In this document: one piece after another, positions 5,502-15,987 of the stretch
Position numbering within the stretch: position 1 is the stretch's first letter
How the letters are laid out: every line of letters begins with the position of its first letter
IMG/VR virus record: IMGVR_UViG_3300010300_000129
Coordinates: 1 to 22,135 of that record
Source of the DNA: a virus
DNA length: 22,135 nt
Strand: one strand, 5' to 3'
Notes under the pieces: model-generated
Databases searched by the model: none
What the model saw: only the letters and a program-made list of their open reading frames with translations
Told to the model about the DNA's origin: nothing
Made by a program: the position numbers and the translations under genes

Positions 5502-5530
5502 AGTATAGTCGATCTAGTAAATTTTTTCAA
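5502..5530 (-). promoter_or_regulatory. Sigma70-type promoter ahead of the uvsX-41 block
   Basis: TTGAAA (5525-5530) and TATACT (5502-5507) on the minus strand are separated by exactly 17 bases. The -35 box lies inside the last codons of an oxygenase gene, and transcription would run into the 56-aa ORF, nucleotidyltransferase, uvsX and gene 41. A second TATA-like palindrome, TATACAGTATA, overlaps the -10 region. This could give the recombination genes a transcript independent of the polymerase operon. Confidence 0.65.
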
Positions 5531-6152
5531 GGTTGAAATTAAAACTGATAGTAATTCTTGGACCATCAGTTTTTTGTGTTGTCACTCGATGCTGAGTAAA
5601 TGCAGGAAACAAAAGCATGTAATCCTCTTCTCCATATTCGGCATATGTTTTCATGCAGTCCAGTTGTCCATATATTCGACTGTAGTTGTAAGATGTCTGA
5701 GTACAATATCTAAACCCATTTTCATTTACAAATTGAATCTTAGGATCTTCTGGTCTAAGTTTTAGAAAATAAACACCGGAAAATAAACTCTGAGGATAAT
5801 CAGCTCCGGTCAAGTTTAGGTGATGATGACTTTCTTGATTTGATCCCTTTACATAATAATTATACCAACATTCATGTATTCCATAATCATGACCACGAAT
5901 ACCAATTTCTTTAGAATACTTTGAATATTCTTTATGAAGGTATGGATAAAGTTCCTTAAAATCGACATTATTGATTGAGTCTTTTACACTCCCAACATGA
6001 GTGCTATGGATCATACATGCCCAATCAGGATGAAGATAGTCTTTATTGTCTTGATAATTATTTTCTATTTGCATCAAAAGATCTGCCCGAATCTCTTCAG
6101 GCAGATTTAGTTTAGTATACCAAATAGGAGTTGGAAATAAATTCTTTATCAT
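5514..6152 (-). CDS. Putative 2-oxoglutarate/Fe(II) oxygenase (2 of 5)
   Basis: The 212-residue product fits the 2OG-FeII_Oxy_5 type. It starts MIKNLFPTPIWYTKLNL, and an FPTPIW opening of this kind is common in that family. A histidine cluster H109-H111 is followed by SLFSGVYFLK. The second half of the active site is H188 in FTQHRV, with R199 in GPRITISFN in the place of the 2-oxoglutarate-binding Arg. The substrate is unknown. The start codon overlaps the stop of polymerase gene 43 (ATGA), so expression is tied to gp43. The promoter of the next block starts inside its 3' end. It is clearly different in sequence from the other four oxygenase-like proteins, so it is not a recent duplicate. Confidence 0.8.
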   Translation of the reverse strand: MIKNLFPTPIWYTKLNLPEEIRADLLMQIENNYQDNKDYLHPDWACMIHSTHVGSVKDSINNVDFKELYPYLHKEYSKYSKEIGIRGHDYGIHECWYNYYVKGSNQESHHHLNLTGADYPQSLFSGVYFLKLRPEDPKIQFVNENGFRYCTQTSYNYSRIYGQLDCMKTYAEYGEEDYMLLFPAFTQHRVTTQKTDGPRITISFNFNLEKIY

Positions 6153-9778: not shown

Positions 9779-10216
9779 TTATGACTCTTTCTCTTCAGCA
9801 GTTTTCTTTTTACCAATGTTGTACTTGGTCTCAAGAATCCAGTCTCCCTTATCTCGGTATGCTAGAACTTTAATCTGATTAAGGGGAGCGATATCAAGAA
9901 TAGAATCACTATCAAGAACAGTAATCAAACCCCAGTCACACAACAGTTGCGTAATACGATTACGTCTCTGAACATCATTCACCGTCAAATTGGCATGTTT
10001 CCCGTCCAGAGCGAACAGCTCCTTGAAATGGACGATAAAATATCTTCCCTGCTTGTGCAAAATATGGCAGGACTGATAAAGTTTCTTTTCTTTGCGAGAC
10101 GCAACTCCGATTCTCGTCAATGTCTCACGTACTTTCAGGAAGTCATCAGGTTCATTTAAGAAAACTTCCACCATGCTATCAGGTGTCCAGTTGACCTGAG
10201 GTTCGCTTTGACTCAT
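9779..10216 (-). CDS. regA: RegA translational repressor
   Basis: The 145-residue product is homologous to T4 RegA, which binds AU-rich translation initiation sites of early mRNAs and blocks ribosome entry. The conserved blocks are nearly identical in wording to T4: FLKVRETLTRIGVA at about 25-38, LYQSCHILHKQGRYFIVHFKEL at about 46-67, and LLCDWGLI at about 92-99. It has about 14 extra residues at the N-terminus compared with T4. I keep the ATG at 10216 because it overlaps the gene 62 stop as ATGA. Position between genes 62 and 43 matches T4 order, with hsp20 and the 27-aa gene inserted. Likely targets would include clamp and clamp-loader messages. Confidence 0.97.
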   Translation of the reverse strand: MSQSEPQVNWTPDSMVEVFLNEPDDFLKVRETLTRIGVASRKEKKLYQSCHILHKQGRYFIVHFKELFALDGKHANLTVNDVQRRNRITQLLCDWGLITVLDSDSILDIAPLNQIKVLAYRDKGDWILETKYNIGKKKTAEEKES

Positions 10217-10599
10217 GATTTACCGCCAGTTTCAAATTTCGATTTAATGTGTTCGATTTGCTCTCTAGTTAAAATCTTCAGTGCTTGAGATGCCTTTTCA
10301 TTACTATAGTTATAGTATTTTTTGACACATTCAAGATCGTCGATCTTATCTTTTCTAAGCCAAGGAGAGAATCTCTTCTTTTTCCTCAAAGTATTTAGAT
10401 AAAATGAATATTGCATATCTTTGTCAAGAAAGTTATACTTGTTCATTTCATTAGCAAACATCACACAGTCCAAGTGTCCGGACAGGCAGCGGTTCACAAT
10501 ATATGGTGGATAACTCTTGATCGCATCAGGATCTTCGATAGTCAAATCTTCTTTGGTGAAGTTGACAGAATTCAACCAGTCTTTCAGTTCCATGTTCAT
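10213..10599 (-). CDS. 62: Clamp loader small subunit gp62
   Basis: The 128-residue product is the small, non-ATPase subunit that joins four gp44 subunits in the T4-type clamp loader and helps open the gp45 ring. Conserved features include LKDWLNSVNFTKEDL at the N-terminus, YPPYIVNRCLSGHLDCVMFANEMN at about 30-53, and LRKKKRFSPWL near residue 72. T4 gp62 is 187 residues, so this form lacks much of the C-terminal part; I recall short gp62 proteins being normal for cyanophages. Both ends overlap neighbouring genes as ATGA. It is separated from gp44 by four other genes, unlike T4, where 44 and 62 are adjacent. Confidence 0.93.
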   Translation of the reverse strand: MNMELKDWLNSVNFTKEDLTIEDPDAIKSYPPYIVNRCLSGHLDCVMFANEMNKYNFLDKDMQYSFYLNTLRKKKRFSPWLRKDKIDDLECVKKYYNYSNEKASQALKILTREQIEHIKSKFETGGKS

Positions 10600-11702
10600 C
10601 GAATAATTTGAATCTCTTCTTCATCTGTCCAGAGTTCTACACGATCTCTGAAACGTCCTTCTTCTTTCAGTCTTTCATATCTCTTGGTTGCTTTCTTCTT
10701 CCACCAAGAAATAATGTTCTCAAGGTAAAACTTGTCCCAGTTCTGACCACGGCGAAGAGTTTCTTCTTCACCAAGAATCACTTCACGAACATTCTCATAA
10801 CCATAGTCTGAGATATAGAAACGCTTCTGCTGAGTAAGATTGTTTGCCATCTTGATAACCTTATTGAAGGTTTCAAGTTTCTCTTGATCTTCCAGACTCT
10901 TTCGAATGATTGAGATCATCTTTGTCTGACGCTTCATCTTCTTCGATGATGCTTTGTTGTCAGTCAGTGGAGTATTGTTATTCAGGAGAGTGAATCGGTC
11001 ATGAAGTCGATGGAACGCTTCATCATGTAGCAGAGGAAGAAACTTGCTGTCTGTCAAACCCTTGTAGCGAATGAAAGGTTTGAGTCCATCGTACTGTGAG
11101 GCAGACGTAGTTGACCCGTACAGGGACGTTGTTTCGAAGAGAGCGATATCCTTCTCAAAGGCGTCACTGACCGCCTCACGGGCGAAGTGAGACACGCACA
11201 GGAGTGCTAGAAGTTTGCCACCCAGATAGTTAAAACCAAAGGGTTGAGAAGGAACAATCGCAAACCCCATACAGGCATGGCGATTGAAGATCGAAAGATT
11301 CGGTTGCTTACCTAACCACACATTCCTTGGACGAGAATTGATAGTAGGGCTCCCGAAGCGAATGAAACCAATAACTTTGTTCGTGTTTTTCTCATATACC
11401 ATCCATTTCAACTCTCGACCAGGAATGTTCTTCTCATTGTTGTGAGAAGAAACCACTGACAAAAGTCTGTCATATACTTTTTGATCTAGACCACCTTTTC
11501 CAACACGAACGATTTTGAAATCCATATCTTGAGGGTGGATATCTTCGTTCAAGAACTCATTGTGGAGAGGATCTAGAATGCTTTTTGCGCCCAACACTTC
11601 TTTCTTTACATACCGAAGATAGTCTTCGATAGAACTCATATGAGAGAAGTATTCAATAAATTCATCTGCTGCCCAAGAGGCATCACTCTGACCAATAATC
11701 AT
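10596..11702 (-). CDS. Conserved phage protein resembling DruA/DUF4338
   Basis: The 368-residue product has a well-ordered central region at about residues 95-240. It contains GRELKWMVYE, VIGFIRFGSP, RNVWLG, GFAIVPSQPFGFNYLGGKLLA, a serine-histidine SHF, ALFETTSLYG, SQYDGLKPF and YKGLTDS. This succession resembles the DUF4338 family, which includes DruA of the Druantia anti-phage system: variation on GxLxY, LG, R-x-WLG, a 'P' plus hydrophobic helix, 'ETT' and a final G-x-T. A basic C-terminal tail, rich in KKKATKRYERL, could bind nucleic acid. The match is from memory and not proven. The gene is co-translated with gene 62 (ATGA). A virion or replisome-associated enzyme is equally possible. 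Its activity is unknown. Confidence 0.5.
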   Translation of the reverse strand: MIIGQSDASWAADEFIEYFSHMSSIEDYLRYVKKEVLGAKSILDPLHNEFLNEDIHPQDMDFKIVRVGKGGLDQKVYDRLLSVVSSHNNEKNIPGRELKWMVYEKNTNKVIGFIRFGSPTINSRPRNVWLGKQPNLSIFNRHACMGFAIVPSQPFGFNYLGGKLLALLCVSHFAREAVSDAFEKDIALFETTSLYGSTTSASQYDGLKPFIRYKGLTDSKFLPLLHDEAFHRLHDRFTLLNNNTPLTDNKASSKKMKRQTKMISIIRKSLEDQEKLETFNKVIKMANNLTQQKRFYISDYGYENVREVILGEEETLRRGQNWDKFYLENIISWWKKKATKRYERLKEEGRFRDRVELWTDEEEIQIIR

Positions 11703-11705
11703 AAT

Positions 11706-12266
11706 TTAGTTTGTCCAAGATACAAATGTATATCTTTCGCCCTTTGTCACAGGGCGGACTTGGTGTGGGTATAGGAAGTTAGATGGGAATATTATAACAT
11801 CTCCCTCCTTCAAATGGTAGCGTGTGTCGTCAAATAAAACGAGTTCACCACCTTCATATTCCGAGTTTAATGATCCAATGATGCTAAGAACTGGAGCACC
11901 TTCTCCATATAAACCATAGATGTGATCATAATGTTTAGACATTATGTTTCCCACTTTATACCTGAGAAATTTTGGACAACTATATCCTTCCCAAGATCTA
12001 AACCATGGGCACTCTACGTCTATAACATAATTCATCAGTGTATCACTAATAGATTCAAGTATAGCTCTATTAGTGGAAGCAACCTCTTCACTTGTAAATG
12101 GTTCCTTATCACCGTTCTTTGGTTTCGCAGAACCATAACTAGTACCTGACCAACCATGTTGTTCCCAAACACCATTCAGTTTAATATCTTCCAATGTCTC
12201 TCTACACAAATCCTGAGACAAAGCATTGGTGTAAACTTTTACATAATCAGAGAGATGATTTTTCAT
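11706..12266 (-). CDS. 2-oxoglutarate/Fe(II) oxygenase, prolyl-hydroxylase type (3 of 5)
   Basis: The 186-residue product has the complete iron and cosubstrate set: H112-Y-D114 in KHYDHIYG, H168 in LYPHQV, and R178 in KGERYTFVSW. The segment EYEGGELVLFDD before the distal histidine is typical of P4Hc-like hydroxylases that act on proteins or amino acids. I chose the ATG at 12266, which overlaps the previous stop as ATGA; a TTG at 12272 is the alternative. It is arranged in tandem with a related but diverged oxygenase just upstream. The substrate is not known. Possible targets include phage or host proteins at the fork or ribosome. Confidence 0.88.
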   Translation of the reverse strand: MKNHLSDYVKVYTNALSQDLCRETLEDIKLNGVWEQHGWSGTSYGSAKPKNGDKEPFTSEEVASTNRAILESISDTLMNYVIDVECPWFRSWEGYSCPKFLRYKVGNIMSKHYDHIYGLYGEGAPVLSIIGSLNSEYEGGELVLFDDTRYHLKEGDVIIFPSNFLYPHQVRPVTKGERYTFVSWTN

Positions 12267-12784
12267 ATCCAAAAATGCATTACCATAATTTTTTTAATGC
12301 CGATTTTAACAGGACACCCTCTGTGAGGATACATGAAAGATGATGGGAAAACTACTGTTTTCCCTGCAACAGGAACAATCTTATCATTTAAGAACTCTGT
12401 CTCCCCTCCTTCATAATCATCATTCAAATATGTAATAGATGAAATGATTCTACGCCAGGTATTATTCTTAGGATGTCTCCACGTTATACTTGCATCACAG
12501 TGCCAATCATATTGCTGATCTTCACTATACCTAGCAAGTTTATTATCAACTGAATATCCTTGCCCAAGAGACTTCATAAACTGATTCGCCACCAACGGAT
12601 GTAAGTGCGACATATACTTGTTTATGATTTTGTCTTGATCGGGATGGTGATCATCCATGACCCAGATTTCACGATCTCCACGATTACGTGGACTAGGTGA
12701 TCCTTTCCATTCATAGAACATCTCACGCCAAGGATTTAATTCCTCTTGCGTCCAGATATAGTCATATAAAATATTGGGATCCAT
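12263..12784 (-). CDS. Oxygenase-like protein with altered 2-oxoglutarate site (4 of 5)
   Basis: The 173-residue product resembles its downstream neighbour: H95-C-D97 in DWHCDAS, DDYEGGETEF at about 122-131, and H154 in FMYPHRGCP. Where the active neighbour has GERYTF, this protein has GIKKIMVMHF, so the expected 2-oxoglutarate-binding Arg is replaced by Lys164. The iron ligands are intact. The protein may use Lys in the same role, take another cosubstrate, or have lost activity. The start ATG at 12784 shares one A with the previous stop (TAATG). A tandem duplication followed by divergence would explain the pair. Confidence 0.8.
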   Translation of the reverse strand: MDPNILYDYIWTQEELNPWREMFYEWKGSPSPRNRGDREIWVMDDHHPDQDKIINKYMSHLHPLVANQFMKSLGQGYSVDNKLARYSEDQQYDWHCDASITWRHPKNNTWRRIISSITYLNDDYEGGETEFLNDKIVPVAGKTVVFPSSFMYPHRGCPVKIGIKKIMVMHFWI

Positions 12785-13077
12785 TACAAGAGCAACTTCT
12801 TCTCATCAGGAGTAATCAAAGGGCTTCCATAGATTTCTTTGTACTTCTTCTCGATCTTCTCATCAACTGACGCGGTATAAACCAAGTGTTCGTTCTTGAT
12901 CGTCAGTTCAGGTTCATCGCGATCAATCACGGTTGCCCAAGGTGCAAATCCAACAGATCCATTTGCACTAGGAAGGACTACAAGTCCGTTTTGAATTTTG
13001 ATATATGATGCGGTTTCTTCTAGAAGTTCTGCAATAACTTCTTCACCGGTCATAATACGAAACAGTTTTACATTCAT
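12784..13077 (-). CDS. Sm-like (LSm-fold) protein candidate, 97 aa
   Basis: The 97-residue product starts MNVKLFRIMTGEEVIAELLE, followed by YIKIQNGLVVLP. A charged first strand, an invariant-looking TGEE turn, an ELLEE strand and an N-G-L-V-V-L-P strand make the Sm1 pattern. After a PW pair at about 46-47 a second set of strands ends with KNEHLVYTA, and a charged C-terminal helix follows. Proteins of this type from cyanophages have been reported to fold as Sm-like rings. RNA binding or a scaffold role at the replisome would both fit. It is coupled by ATGA to gene 44 and by TAATG to the next oxygenase. Fold assignment is inference. Confidence 0.65.
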   Translation of the reverse strand: MNVKLFRIMTGEEVIAELLEETASYIKIQNGLVVLPSANGSVGFAPWATVIDRDEPELTIKNEHLVYTASVDEKIEKKYKEIYGSPLITPDEKKLLL

Positions 13078-14018
13078 TTGAATTCACACTCCACCATAAG
13101 TTCAGTAAGACAAGCAAGCATATTTATTTCCTGATCCGCAACGAACGCAACCTGATATTGATACTTAGCGAGTACAAGCACAGCAGCAGGAATAGAACCC
13201 GGAACCAGGGAATCATAAAGAGCATCGTAAATACGACGCAGCAGGACACCAGAATCATTATCCAGGTTGGAGACAACCCACTTTCGAACTTCCGAGAAAT
13301 TCTTGTTCTTAAGGTCTTTAATAAGTTCATTGACCGGCACATCAGAGAAAGATGCCAAGATGGCAGAGTCAATCTTGCCGCCAGCTGAGTATCGTTGACA
13401 CTCATTCAAGACTCGTCGCCAATCTGGAAAATGTTTGTTAACTAGTTGGGCAATAACTTTCGGATCATATTCCACACGCTCTGCCTCAAGTATAGTCCCG
13501 AGACGCTTGAAGAATGTGGCGGCGACGGTTTGTTTGTCGCGACCTTTGATTCCAAACTCGATGACGGAGCATCGAGAGTGAAGGGGTTCGATGATTCGAT
13601 TCTTGTAGTTGCAGGTGAAGATGAACCGGCAGTTGCCACTAAACTCCTCAATACTTGCCCGTAGGAGGAGTTGTACGTCGTTTGTTGTGTTGTCTGCCTC
13701 ATCAATGATGATGACTTTGTGTTTAGCAGTTGATGCAAGCGAAACGGTCGAAGCGAAGTTCTTCGCAGTGTTTCTGACAGTATCGAGGAATCGACCTTCG
13801 TCGGATCCGTTGATGACATAGAAATCAACCCCCAGTTCATTACAGAGTGCTTTTGCTACGGTAGTCTTACCGCAACCAGCGGGCCCAGCCAGAAGTAGGT
13901 TTGGTACTTCACCGTTATTTAGAAACTCTTGAAAGGTCTTCTTAATACCATCGGGAAGAATACAGTCTTCGATAGTTTGAGGGCGGTATTTTTCTACCCA
14001 AAGGAACTGGTCGCTCAT
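13074..14018 (-). CDS. 44: Clamp loader large subunit gp44 (AAA+ ATPase)
   Basis: The 314-residue product is the ATPase subunit that, with gp62, loads the gp45 clamp at primer-template junctions. It shows LWVEKYRPQTIEDCI at 6-20, Walker A GPAGCGKT at 45-52, Walker B IIIDEAD at 103-109, and the SRC arginine-finger motif HSRC at 147-150. Length matches T4 gp44 (319 aa). All clamp-loader residues that I can check are present. The start overlaps the stop of a small membrane protein gene as ATGA. RegA is a likely regulator of its translation by analogy to T4. Confidence 0.96.
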   Translation of the reverse strand: MSDQFLWVEKYRPQTIEDCILPDGIKKTFQEFLNNGEVPNLLLAGPAGCGKTTVAKALCNELGVDFYVINGSDEGRFLDTVRNTAKNFASTVSLASTAKHKVIIIDEADNTTNDVQLLLRASIEEFSGNCRFIFTCNYKNRIIEPLHSRCSVIEFGIKGRDKQTVAATFFKRLGTILEAERVEYDPKVIAQLVNKHFPDWRRVLNECQRYSAGGKIDSAILASFSDVPVNELIKDLKNKNFSEVRKWVVSNLDNDSGVLLRRIYDALYDSLVPGSIPAAVLVLAKYQYQVAFVADQEINMLACLTELMVECEFK

Positions 14019-14233: not shown

Positions 14234-14757
14234 ACCCAATCTGGTTTTCTGGATCCGTCACGAAGATAATTAGATGCAACCCAAGGTTTGCTGCTAATGT
14301 ACATTTTGTAAGCAGTAATAGTGTCGATGCTTGTGTCAAATTTAAACTCATTTGGCATTGCGCGAGTGAAGTCTTCGACCATGCAATAACAGGTAATTGC
14401 TTTACCAGTTTTGCGATGGAATAATTTTTTTGCTTCGAACAAAGTTTTCATGCACGAGTGTACTTTACCATATCGATGAAAGTATTCTGTACACAATGCT
14501 AAACCGTGTGCAATCAACCAGGCAGTTTTTTCATGCGACTCTGCTGCCCACTTAGTACATGGATGATTGCGGAATGCACCCTTGTCTGTTTTGTAAGGTT
14601 CACCGTTGACTCGATGAATAGGTCCCCAACCATAATACCACTTTGAATATATGATGCTGAGCATTTGACAACACTCAAGTGGCATCTTTACAATATGCTT
14701 GTCCGGGAGGACTTGTGCAGATAAGCGTGGATCTTGGTCGGTTACAAAAATGTTCAT
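14230..14757 (-). CDS. Conserved phage protein with DKHIVKM motif, unknown
   Basis: The 175-residue product begins MNIFVTDQDPRLSAQVLPDK and then HIVKMPLECCQMLS. I recall this N-terminal pattern (MNIF-x-x-D...DKHxVKM-LE-QML) from phage proteins of unknown function. Further polar motifs are FRNHPCTKWAAESHEKTAWLIAHG and EYFHRYGKVHSC, which supply several His, Cys and Trp residues in a helical context. A possible link to pyrimidine-dimer glycosylases comes to mind, but I cannot support it and the sequence is not like T4 endonuclease V. The length and overlap with both neighbours as ATGA show it is a real gene. It may be a nucleic-acid enzyme. Confidence 0.7.
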   Translation of the reverse strand: MNIFVTDQDPRLSAQVLPDKHIVKMPLECCQMLSIIYSKWYYGWGPIHRVNGEPYKTDKGAFRNHPCTKWAAESHEKTAWLIAHGLALCTEYFHRYGKVHSCMKTLFEAKKLFHRKTGKAITCYCMVEDFTRAMPNEFKFDTSIDTITAYKMYISSKPWVASNYLRDGSRKPDWV

Positions 14758-15320
14758 ACCAAATTGGTGTTGATTAGAACTCTTCGCTTACAGTCTGACG
14801 GAGAATGTCCAGTATGTAAATGGCTTCCGTCAAAAATTAATATTCTATTTGCCTTTGGTCTTACTCGAACCATTTCAGTAAGAGTTGAAAAGTCTGCAGC
14901 ATAGAACTCTTCTTCATTAGTTGCTCTTTCATTATACAACACGGTCTCAGCATCAGAGTCTGTTAGATAAAAAACTGATGAGATGTGTGGATAGTAAAAG
15001 TCAATATGAGGGGGATGCTTATGCTTGTTTGGAGTGTGGGTTACCATATCTAATCTACACCGAATCACTCTTTGAGTATCAGTTTCTAGTAAGAGGTCGG
15101 CGTAGAAAGATGCCAAGAAAGGGTGAAGGTGAGAAGATTTTCCTTCAAATAGAATTGTATGATTGAAACCAAAGTCAAATAAACTTTCTTCTCCAGGATC
15201 TTCACTTTTATATTTGGTGACGTTTCCTTGATATTCCCAGATGTGGTCTCCTTCTAAGACCTCACGCTGAATCATCTCAAAGTATCTTGGAGATAGAAAG
15301 TTGTCAATGACCTTATACAT
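14754..15320 (-). CDS. 2-oxoglutarate/Fe(II) oxygenase-like protein (5 of 5)
   Basis: The 188-residue product begins MYKVIDNFLSPRYFEMIQ. Likely iron ligands are H105-I-D107 in PPHIDFYYPH and one of H167, H169 or H172 in DGSHLHTGHSP, with R179 or R180 near the end as the candidate 2-oxoglutarate ligand. The middle contains SSVFYLTDSDAETVLYNE, the pattern of a barrel strand and turn. I chose the ATG at 15320, which overlaps the gp45 stop by 8 bases, over a longer frame reaching back into gene 45. It is diverged from the other four. The substrate is unknown. Confidence 0.78.
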   Translation of the reverse strand: MYKVIDNFLSPRYFEMIQREVLEGDHIWEYQGNVTKYKSEDPGEESLFDFGFNHTILFEGKSSHLHPFLASFYADLLLETDTQRVIRCRLDMVTHTPNKHKHPPHIDFYYPHISSVFYLTDSDAETVLYNERATNEEEFYAADFSTLTEMVRVRPKANRILIFDGSHLHTGHSPSDCKRRVLINTNLV

Positions 15321-15987
15321 TAGCAGTAAAAGTAGAATCGGGTTCCAGTGCAACGTAATAGCACAAGTTTTGGTTGGTGCTAGTAAAGCGAGACAGCAGT
15401 TTCTCAGAAACTACAACATCATATGTGCCAGGAAGAATCTTGATGTTCTCAACTTTGAAGTTGAAGACAAACTCAGAATTAGTTTCACCAACAACAACAG
15501 AGAAGTCATTAGAGGTGTCGTTCTTCTTATCACGAACAACCAGTTTGACAACACCATTCTCACCCACAGCTGAGAGATCAGGAAGTTGATACACTGCTGC
15601 TGCTTTCAGAAGTTTGTCCAACTGTTTAGTATCTAGAGTGAAGCAAACATCTTCGCTGGGAAGTGCAATAGACTTCTCAGGAGGAGTCACAATGACGTTA
15701 GGATCAGCAAAGAAATACTTTGAACGAGAGCGACCTTCGCGGATCACAACATAAGAGTCGTTCTGAAAGTCCAGTTCAGCAGACTGGTGGAGAGACACGC
15801 CATTCAAGAACTGGTTCAGATCGTAGATACCGAAGTCCTTAGGGAAATCTTCATCAATCGTCGCCTCTGCAAGAATGTTCTTCATCACAGAGATAGTACG
15901 CAGCTGATTGCCCTGCTTCACAAGAATAGACTGGTTGATGTTGCTGAAGTTCTTGAGAAGGTTGAGGGTTTTATCAGACAGTTTCAT
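15313..15987 (-). CDS. 45: Sliding clamp gp45
   Basis: The 224-residue product is the trimeric processivity clamp. It aligns by eye with T4 gp45 (228 aa): MKLSDKTLNLLKNFSNINQS at the N-terminus, DFGIYDLNQFLNGVSL at about 50-65, FNFKVENIKILPGTYDVVVS at about 171-190, and the C-terminal YYVALEPDSTFTANV. I chose the ATG at 15987; the frame extends to 16065 but the T4 match starts here. No good ribosome binding site is visible and the gap to the DUF3310 gene is 17 bases. By analogy to T4 it would also act as mobile activator of late transcription, which fits the TATAAATA motifs found at 8982 and 9679. Confidence 0.95.
   Translation of the reverse strand: MKLSDKTLNLLKNFSNINQSILVKQGNQLRTISVMKNILAEATIDEDFPKDFGIYDLNQFLNGVSLHQSAELDFQNDSYVVIREGRSRSKYFFADPNVIVTPPEKSIALPSEDVCFTLDTKQLDKLLKAAAVYQLPDLSAVGENGVVKLVVRDKKNDTSNDFSVVVGETNSEFVFNFKVENIKILPGTYDVVVSEKLLSRFTSTNQNLCYYVALEPDSTFTANV

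Follow-up and report, generated by a model that had tools for sequence, protein, structure and literature searches.

A gene on the minus strand of IMG/VR virus record IMGVR_UViG_3300010300_000129, a fragment of 22,135 bases (the window hereafter, meaning this whole stretch), lies within a phage replisome operon in the slot between the clamp loader genes gp44 and gp62, and its 368-aa product is assigned by sequence comparison to the DruA/DUF4338 family. Among relatives of the window this slot holds either the DruA-like gene or a D12 (Dam-type) N6-adenine methylase: the two are mutually exclusive at the slot and are almost never found together in one genome. The swap with a methylase points to chemical marking of DNA by DruA-type proteins. 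The window protein is probably a GNAT acyltransferase of the DruA family, modifying phage DNA as a substitute for the methylase found at this position in most related cyanomyoviruses.

The exclusion was assessed on a sample blind to the content of the slot, namely the 80 loci returned by a scan with the window gp62, for which the 1.5 kb upstream of gp62 was read. The DruA-like gene was present in 35 loci and a methylase in 34 (all confirmed as D12-type), with none holding both; four had gp44 only, one had another gene, and six had too little upstream sequence. The association (Fisher 4.4e-16) ignores kinship and applies to relatives of the window gp62. A wider set of 319 loci comprised 271 with the DruA-like gene, 42 with the methylase, six with neither and none with both; these were mostly chosen by the DruA-like gene, and our conclusions rest on the 80 chosen by gp62. 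The flanks of 392 DruA-like loci contained no D12 methylase; at one of them (L295) the start of a PF01555-like methylase lies at the end of the locus, outside the slot.

Annotated genomes gave the same picture, ten further phages having been drawn from a spread list of gp62 matches. A slot methylase was present in 10 of 11 annotated cyanomyoviruses that lack the DruA-like gene: an adenine methylase lies upstream of gp62 in P-SSM2 (in which five small genes separate the two), S-SCSM1, ACG-2014a, ACG-2014d, Syn19, S-CAM3, S-RIM14, S-RIM44, and S-WAM1, and a DNA methylase lies between gp44 and gp62 in Bellamy; ACG-2014f has a glutaredoxin upstream of gp62 instead. All four slot methylases that were scanned belong to PF02086, the D12 N6-adenine class (8e-32). 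Across whole records, PF02086 was identified in all 11 isolates without the DruA-like gene vs. one of the 12 carriers (Fisher 9.6e-6, ignoring kinship), and PF01555 methylases in 4 of 11 non-carriers and 0 of 12 carriers. For 15 large IMG/VR records, none of the 13 carriers has the slot-type methylase, one non-carrier has it, and one record of 92 kb (L549) has neither gene. The DruA-like gene and the methylase are unrelated, yet they replace one another at a single locus and avoid each other across whole genomes, which makes related work likely.

The slot swap recurs across the tree. In a quick gp62+RegA tree (86 rows, 82 of them labeled, one row duplicating the window), a minimum of 17 changes in slot label is required, vs. 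approximately 29 for shuffled labels, and well-supported branches force three to four; in a gp44+gp62+RegA tree of 21 isolates the minimum is six changes, three of them forced. Sister pairs with differing slot genes include S-SM2/Bellamy, S-SRM01/P-SSM2, and the IMG/VR loci L119/L556. In the last pair, DNA identity is 91% from 3 nt ahead of gp62 to RegA inclusive and 83% over 153 bp upstream, and the genes in between differ; similarly, locus L117 and Bellamy share 93% identity at the gp44 end and 85% over gp62-RegA.

In the window, the slot and its borders comprise the following features:
9779-10216, minus strand: RegA translational repressor (PF01818, E 1.2e-42)
10213-10599, minus strand: gp62, clamp loader small subunit (PF16790 Phage_clamp_A, E 1.6e-9)
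10596-10599, minus strand: ATGA overlap of the DruA-like gene stop with the gp62 start, read from the sequence
10596-11702, minus strand: DruA/DUF4338-family gene, 368 aa (open reading frame and translation; PF14236 match at residues 54-194; AlphaFold2 model)
11706-12272, minus strand: 2-oxoglutarate (2OG)-Fe(II) oxygenase, directly upstream of the DruA-like gene within the slot (PF13640, E 6.6e-14)
12263-12784, minus strand: second 2OG-Fe(II) oxygenase within the slot (PF13640, E 6.3e-17)
13074-14018, minus strand: gp44, clamp loader large subunit, the opposite border of the slot (PF00004, E 9.5e-20; PF21328 Gp44_lid, E 2.5e-15)

The original prediction, made from the letters of the window, had given the interval correctly; that the gene is on the minus strand, a point absent from it, follows from the single open frame with an ATG start there, the plus strand of the interval being riddled with stops. 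All six motifs that it quoted are present in the translation. The gene does lie between an oxygenase (PF13640, 3 nt away) and gene 62 (PF16790), with the ATGA coupling that had been described. The order on the minus strand is gp44, a 97-aa open reading frame (ORF), the two oxygenases, the DruA-like gene, gp62, RegA, Hsp20, and a large ORF that sits at the place of the DNA polymerase gene gp43 (the polymerase name coming from the megablast annotation); Synechococcus myoviruses are the nearest named phages by megablast. The DruA-like gene is under purifying selection, since the ratio of nonsynonymous to synonymous polymorphism (pN/pS) was 0.03-0.22 in all 10 pairs tried.

The gene proved not to be universal in cyanomyoviruses, a question that the original prediction had raised together with a housekeeping role in replication or DNA modification. 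Of 50,697 phage records searched by tblastn, 31 contained it; these belong to Synechococcus, Pelagibacter, and marine single-cell phages. At least 600 IMG/VR stretches match the protein. gp62 is far more widespread, occurring in 376 Synechococcus-, 61 Cyanophage-, and 24 Prochlorococcus-named records; the record-name counts sum to 354 of 376, 61 of 61, and 24 of 24 of these gp62 records, respectively, as sums of names unmatched record by record, with S-SCSM2R possibly counted twice. A universal replication gene is rejected on this distribution. Moreover, adjacency to gp62 does not make the protein a part of the replisome, because the same slot also takes the methylase or, in one phage, glutaredoxin, and because the gene is not universal. 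The other half of that proposal fared better: DNA modification is favored by the alternation of the gene with a DNA adenine methylase at one locus and by the resemblance of bacterial DUF4338 proteins to Mom, the DNA-modifying protein of phage Mu.

Assignment to the DruA family, which the original prediction had proposed, is supported by the hidden Markov model PF14236, which the window protein matches at 35.7 bits (curated cut-off 27; E 7.1e-9) over residues 54-194 and profile positions 42-181 of 297; it also matches PADLOC DruA1 (E 1.1e-5). All five relatives scanned exceed the PF14236 cut-off, the best being that of Mosig (E 1.8e-22, profile positions 60-296). In a comparison of the phage-family profile (67 sequences) with 18 bacterial DUF4338 proteins by hhalign, the score was 31.3, and none of 100 column shuffles was as high (maximum 23.6). 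PHROG 19197 matches over residues 1-368 (E 1e-158), with its function annotated as unknown; an NCBIfam scan gave nothing notable, and no solved relative was found by sequence up to E 10. GenBank names for the homologs differ: “hypothetical protein,” “putative cytoplasmic protein,” “methylcarbamoylase mom” (S-SCSM2R), and “DUF4338” (Mosig). Pelagibacter myoviruses have a second DUF4338 type of 432 aa (L083:7608-8903) with a stronger PF14236 match, which sits among gp46/47-like and oxygenase genes; HTVC008M and one IMG/VR record (L336, G006) have two PF14236 genes apiece. The bacterial DUF4338 genes near our bacterial query (L404; L412-L491) often lie about 1 kb from where a short contig ends, as is the case for repeated mobile elements.

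The AlphaFold2 model of the window protein, built with the 67 sequences, has a mean predicted local distance difference test score (pLDDT) of 89.0 and a predicted template modeling score (pTM) of 0.85, and is that of a predicted GNAT acyltransferase fold followed by a helical C-terminus. GNAT acyltransferases are its top Foldseek matches in the PDB, although none reached E ≤0.001 (best 1yvk, E 3.6e-3, probability 1.00), and VIA-align gives a Z-score of approximately 10 to many GNATs, with 138-173 residues aligned. The bacterial DUF4338 model (18 sequences; pLDDT 78.8, pTM 0.62) agrees with that of the window protein in the succession of its strands and helices, down to a pair of helices that separates strands 3 and 4; the two models were compared by this order of elements, and both are GNAT-like against solved structures. 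Within the window protein we distinguish:
11037-11534, minus strand: GNAT-like domain, approximately residues 57-222 (model secondary structure and GNAT matches)
11196-11270, minus strand: most conserved stretch, residues 145-169, MGFxIVPxQPFGxNYLGGKLLALLC (67 sequences)
11052-11141, minus strand: second conserved stretch, residues 188-217, LFETTSLYG...S.YDGLKP...G.T (67 sequences)
10599-11036, minus strand: basic helical C-terminal part, residues 223-368 (model; isoelectric point 9.4)

The modeled strands of the GNAT domain are at residues 62-67, 97-104, 109-117, 143-151, 188-192, and 212-216. Residues 145-169, with V150, P151, Q153, P154, G156, G161, G162, K163, L164, and L165 invariant in the 67 sequences, would form the end of strand 4 and the start of helix 3, the site at which GNATs bind the pyrophosphate of coenzyme A (CoA). 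The canonical GNAT CoA motif is Q/RxxGxG/A; Q and G of Q153xxG156xN158 are invariant, with an uncertain register relative to that motif. In the second stretch T191-G196, S202, Y204, and D205 are invariant, and by motif order it would be the counterpart of the DruA stretch ETFvDp..frGTcYrAANW..lG. The basic C-terminus may contact nucleic acid. The best matches of the phage protein among viral models (BFVD) are giant-virus proteins of unknown function, A0A3G4ZXG3 (Faunusvirus, E 4e-16), A0A5K0UAJ3 (Yasminevirus), and A0A3G4ZRA1 (Dasosvirus), which suggests that DUF4338-like enzymes may also be present in giant viruses.

Mom is a GNAT that acylates adenine in DNA (PMC7824862), and it is the top solved structure by Z for the bacterial DUF4338 model (8bv8_A; Z 13.1, root-mean-square deviation (rmsd) 4.4, 168 residues aligned, 16% identity; runner-up Z 11.9). 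The bacterial DUF4338 and Mom profiles match over 30 columns (E 2.9e-4, a level that no shuffle of 100 equaled), the matched stretch being ETFvDp..frGTcYrAANW..lG in DruA and QSFADerxGxxGxiYQAsNFxyxG in Mom (in common, ETF.D/QSF.D ... G..Y.A.N(W/F)...G). The window model aligns to Mom 8bv8_B (Z 9.9, rmsd 3.8, 173 residues), tied with other GNATs, and a Mom ranks sixth among viral models (E 1.6e-3). The phage protein is therefore linked to Mom through the DruA family, because the bacterial DUF4338 profile matches Mom whereas the phage profile does not. We do not classify the window protein itself as a Mom: it has no PF25680 match, PF14236 being its sole match at E up to 1, and its family profile does not match that of Mom. 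A true Mom (PF25680, E 2.6e-50; annotated as DUF465) was identified in Melnitz-3, a Kyanoviridae phage of Methylophilales, in which neither the DruA-like gene nor the methylase was found; no Mom was present in 22 of 24 records scanned.

We infer that the DruA-like protein would be translated together with gp62 and RegA during synthesis of the replisome, in keeping with the observed operon and ATGA overlap. Its modeled GNAT domain would take an acyl group from an acyl-CoA-type donor, the basic C-terminus would help to grip DNA, and the exocyclic amine of a base would be acylated in the style of Mom of Mu, as the resemblance of DruA to Mom suggests. The acyl mark would then serve in place of the Dam mark, its most likely use being to shield new phage DNA from host restriction. 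A broader proposal, which we advance more tentatively and hold as somewhat short of probable, is that DUF4338/DruA forms a second clade of Mom-type DNA acyltransferases, that cyanomyoviruses require one mark on their DNA and swap Dam methylation for a DruA acyl mark at one replisome locus, and that DruA is the so far unrecognized DNA-modification part of Druantia, comparable to methylation in DISARM and deazaguanine in Dpd. (DISARM methylates DNA; Dpd makes deazaguanine.)

Site avoidance, tested for 16 palindromes in 40 kb from each of 12 carrier isolates and 11 isolates with the methylase, gave no firm support for DNA modification. In the isolates, mean observed/expected GGCC was 0.76 in carriers vs. 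0.23 in methylase phages (p 2.5e-4), such that carriers avoid it less, with weaker differences for CCGG, AGCT, and TGCA; in the gp62-chosen sample it was 0.89 in carriers vs. 0.47 at methylase loci (0 of 400 permutations), the CCGG and AGCT differences were not repeated, and AATT differed in the opposite direction (p 0.01). The GGCC difference is a weak lead. Mosig and HTVC008M have almost no GATC sites (observed/expected 0.04 and 0.18, respectively).

Several observations weigh against DNA acylation by the phage protein. The GGCC signal is unsupported on tree-independent pairs (three pairs, on average 0.4 for and 1.1 against, too few for significance), the window, itself a carrier, avoids GGCC (4 sites seen, 17.3 expected), and GATC frequency is alike in the carrier and methylase groups. 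For the window protein, Mom is one of numerous GNATs that score a Z of about 10, the phage-family profile does not match the Mom profile (9 of 100 shuffles as high), and neither Mom residue S124 nor the canonical CoA motif maps with certainty on the phage protein. The DruA-like gene and Mom are not simple equivalents, because S-SSM7 (GU071098) has both, with Mom at 216832-217392. S-SCSM2R carries the DruA-like gene together with a D12 methylase, 25% identical to the slot type and 48 kb into the record. Exclusion could also stem from competition for a single slot, although it extends genome-wide.

The protein might instead be a GNAT whose substrate is tRNA or a protein (host RNA polymerase, ribosome, or a replisome part), serving host takeover, the shared slot then reflecting no more than cargo traded at a hot spot of recombination. 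Most GNATs use amines on proteins or small molecules as their targets, RNA polymerase is a documented target of phage GNATs (PMC7824862), and unrelated genes (2OG oxygenases, glutaredoxin) also occupy the slot; however, this would leave unexplained both the genome-wide lack of D12 methylase in carriers (1/12 vs. 11/11 in isolates; 0/13 in large contigs) and Mom as the closest solved structure to bacterial DUF4338, and we regard it as unlikely. Still less likely is a role in defense or counter-defense, with DruA acting against superinfecting phages or as a decoy, one that would leave DNA unmodified while blocking a Druantia-like or restriction system of the host. Such a role would suit a member of the same family as Druantia DruA, and anti-restriction would likewise make Dam dispensable, but operon position and conservation favor routine use, and a PADLOC scan of the 10 other window proteins of this 22 kb fragment found no Druantia partner (DruB-E, e.g., the DruE helicase), so that a full Druantia system is rejected within that scope; no Druantia is known to work through DruA alone. 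Least probable is that the protein serves the replisome in a structural or accessory capacity, its GNAT fold being inactive; the ATGA coupling and the position of most loci among replisome genes (gp62 ≤200 nt downstream in 230 of 392) could speak for this. Such a protein would not be expected to be absent from most cyanomyoviruses, to follow the polymerase gene in HTVC008M, to lie near gp46/47 in S-B68, or to keep its presumed CoA-loop residues invariant in 67 sequences.

Compared with DruA of Druantia type I, the window protein belongs to the same Pfam family above cut-off and has the predicted element order of the bacterial DUF4338 protein, but its gene stands alone in a replisome operon, identity is low, and the helical C-terminus is longer. 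It has the GNAT fold in common with Mom (PF25680), and shares the slot of the cyanomyovirus D12 methylase (PF02086) while differing from it in fold and chemistry. A DruA-like structure in six Synechococcus phages has been reported, with S-PRM1 (NC_055761) pictured (Phold 2026, PMC12774648); the accessible text gives structural likeness only and mentions neither the methylase swap nor Mom. The pictured protein is of the same family as ours because the sole PF14236 match of S-PRM1 is the homolog of the window gene. DUF4338 has also been described as a GNAT domain fused to DndF (2024, PMC10853773), where this member of the same Pfam family is read as a protein-acting co-effector in a restriction complex. 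YprA-helicase systems (DISARM, Dpd, BRIGADE, and Druantia) have been linked together, with no DruA chemistry in the accessible text (PMC12458937). The open-licence PubMed Central literature, as far as its text was accessible, yielded no report of the methylase swap or of DruA activity and no stated DruA function. Thus cyanophage DruA-like proteins and DUF4338 as a GNAT are already in print; the slot location is the new part, and the swap with Dam and the link between DruA and Mom merit closer attention.

Lytic, laboratory-grown carriers include S-T4 and S-PRM1 on Synechococcus WH7803 and S-SM2 on WH8017. The exchange of a DruA relative for a methylase in cultured lytic phages offers a direct check of virion DNA for a new base, which, if found, would identify what a large family of enzymes does chemically, account for a defense component, and give viruses abundant in marine waters a further DNA modification. 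Within its 22 kb the window also has five genes for 2OG-Fe(II) oxygenases or DUF6445 proteins (1768-2526, 5514-6152, 11706-12784, and 14754-15353), two of which share the slot with the DruA-like gene.
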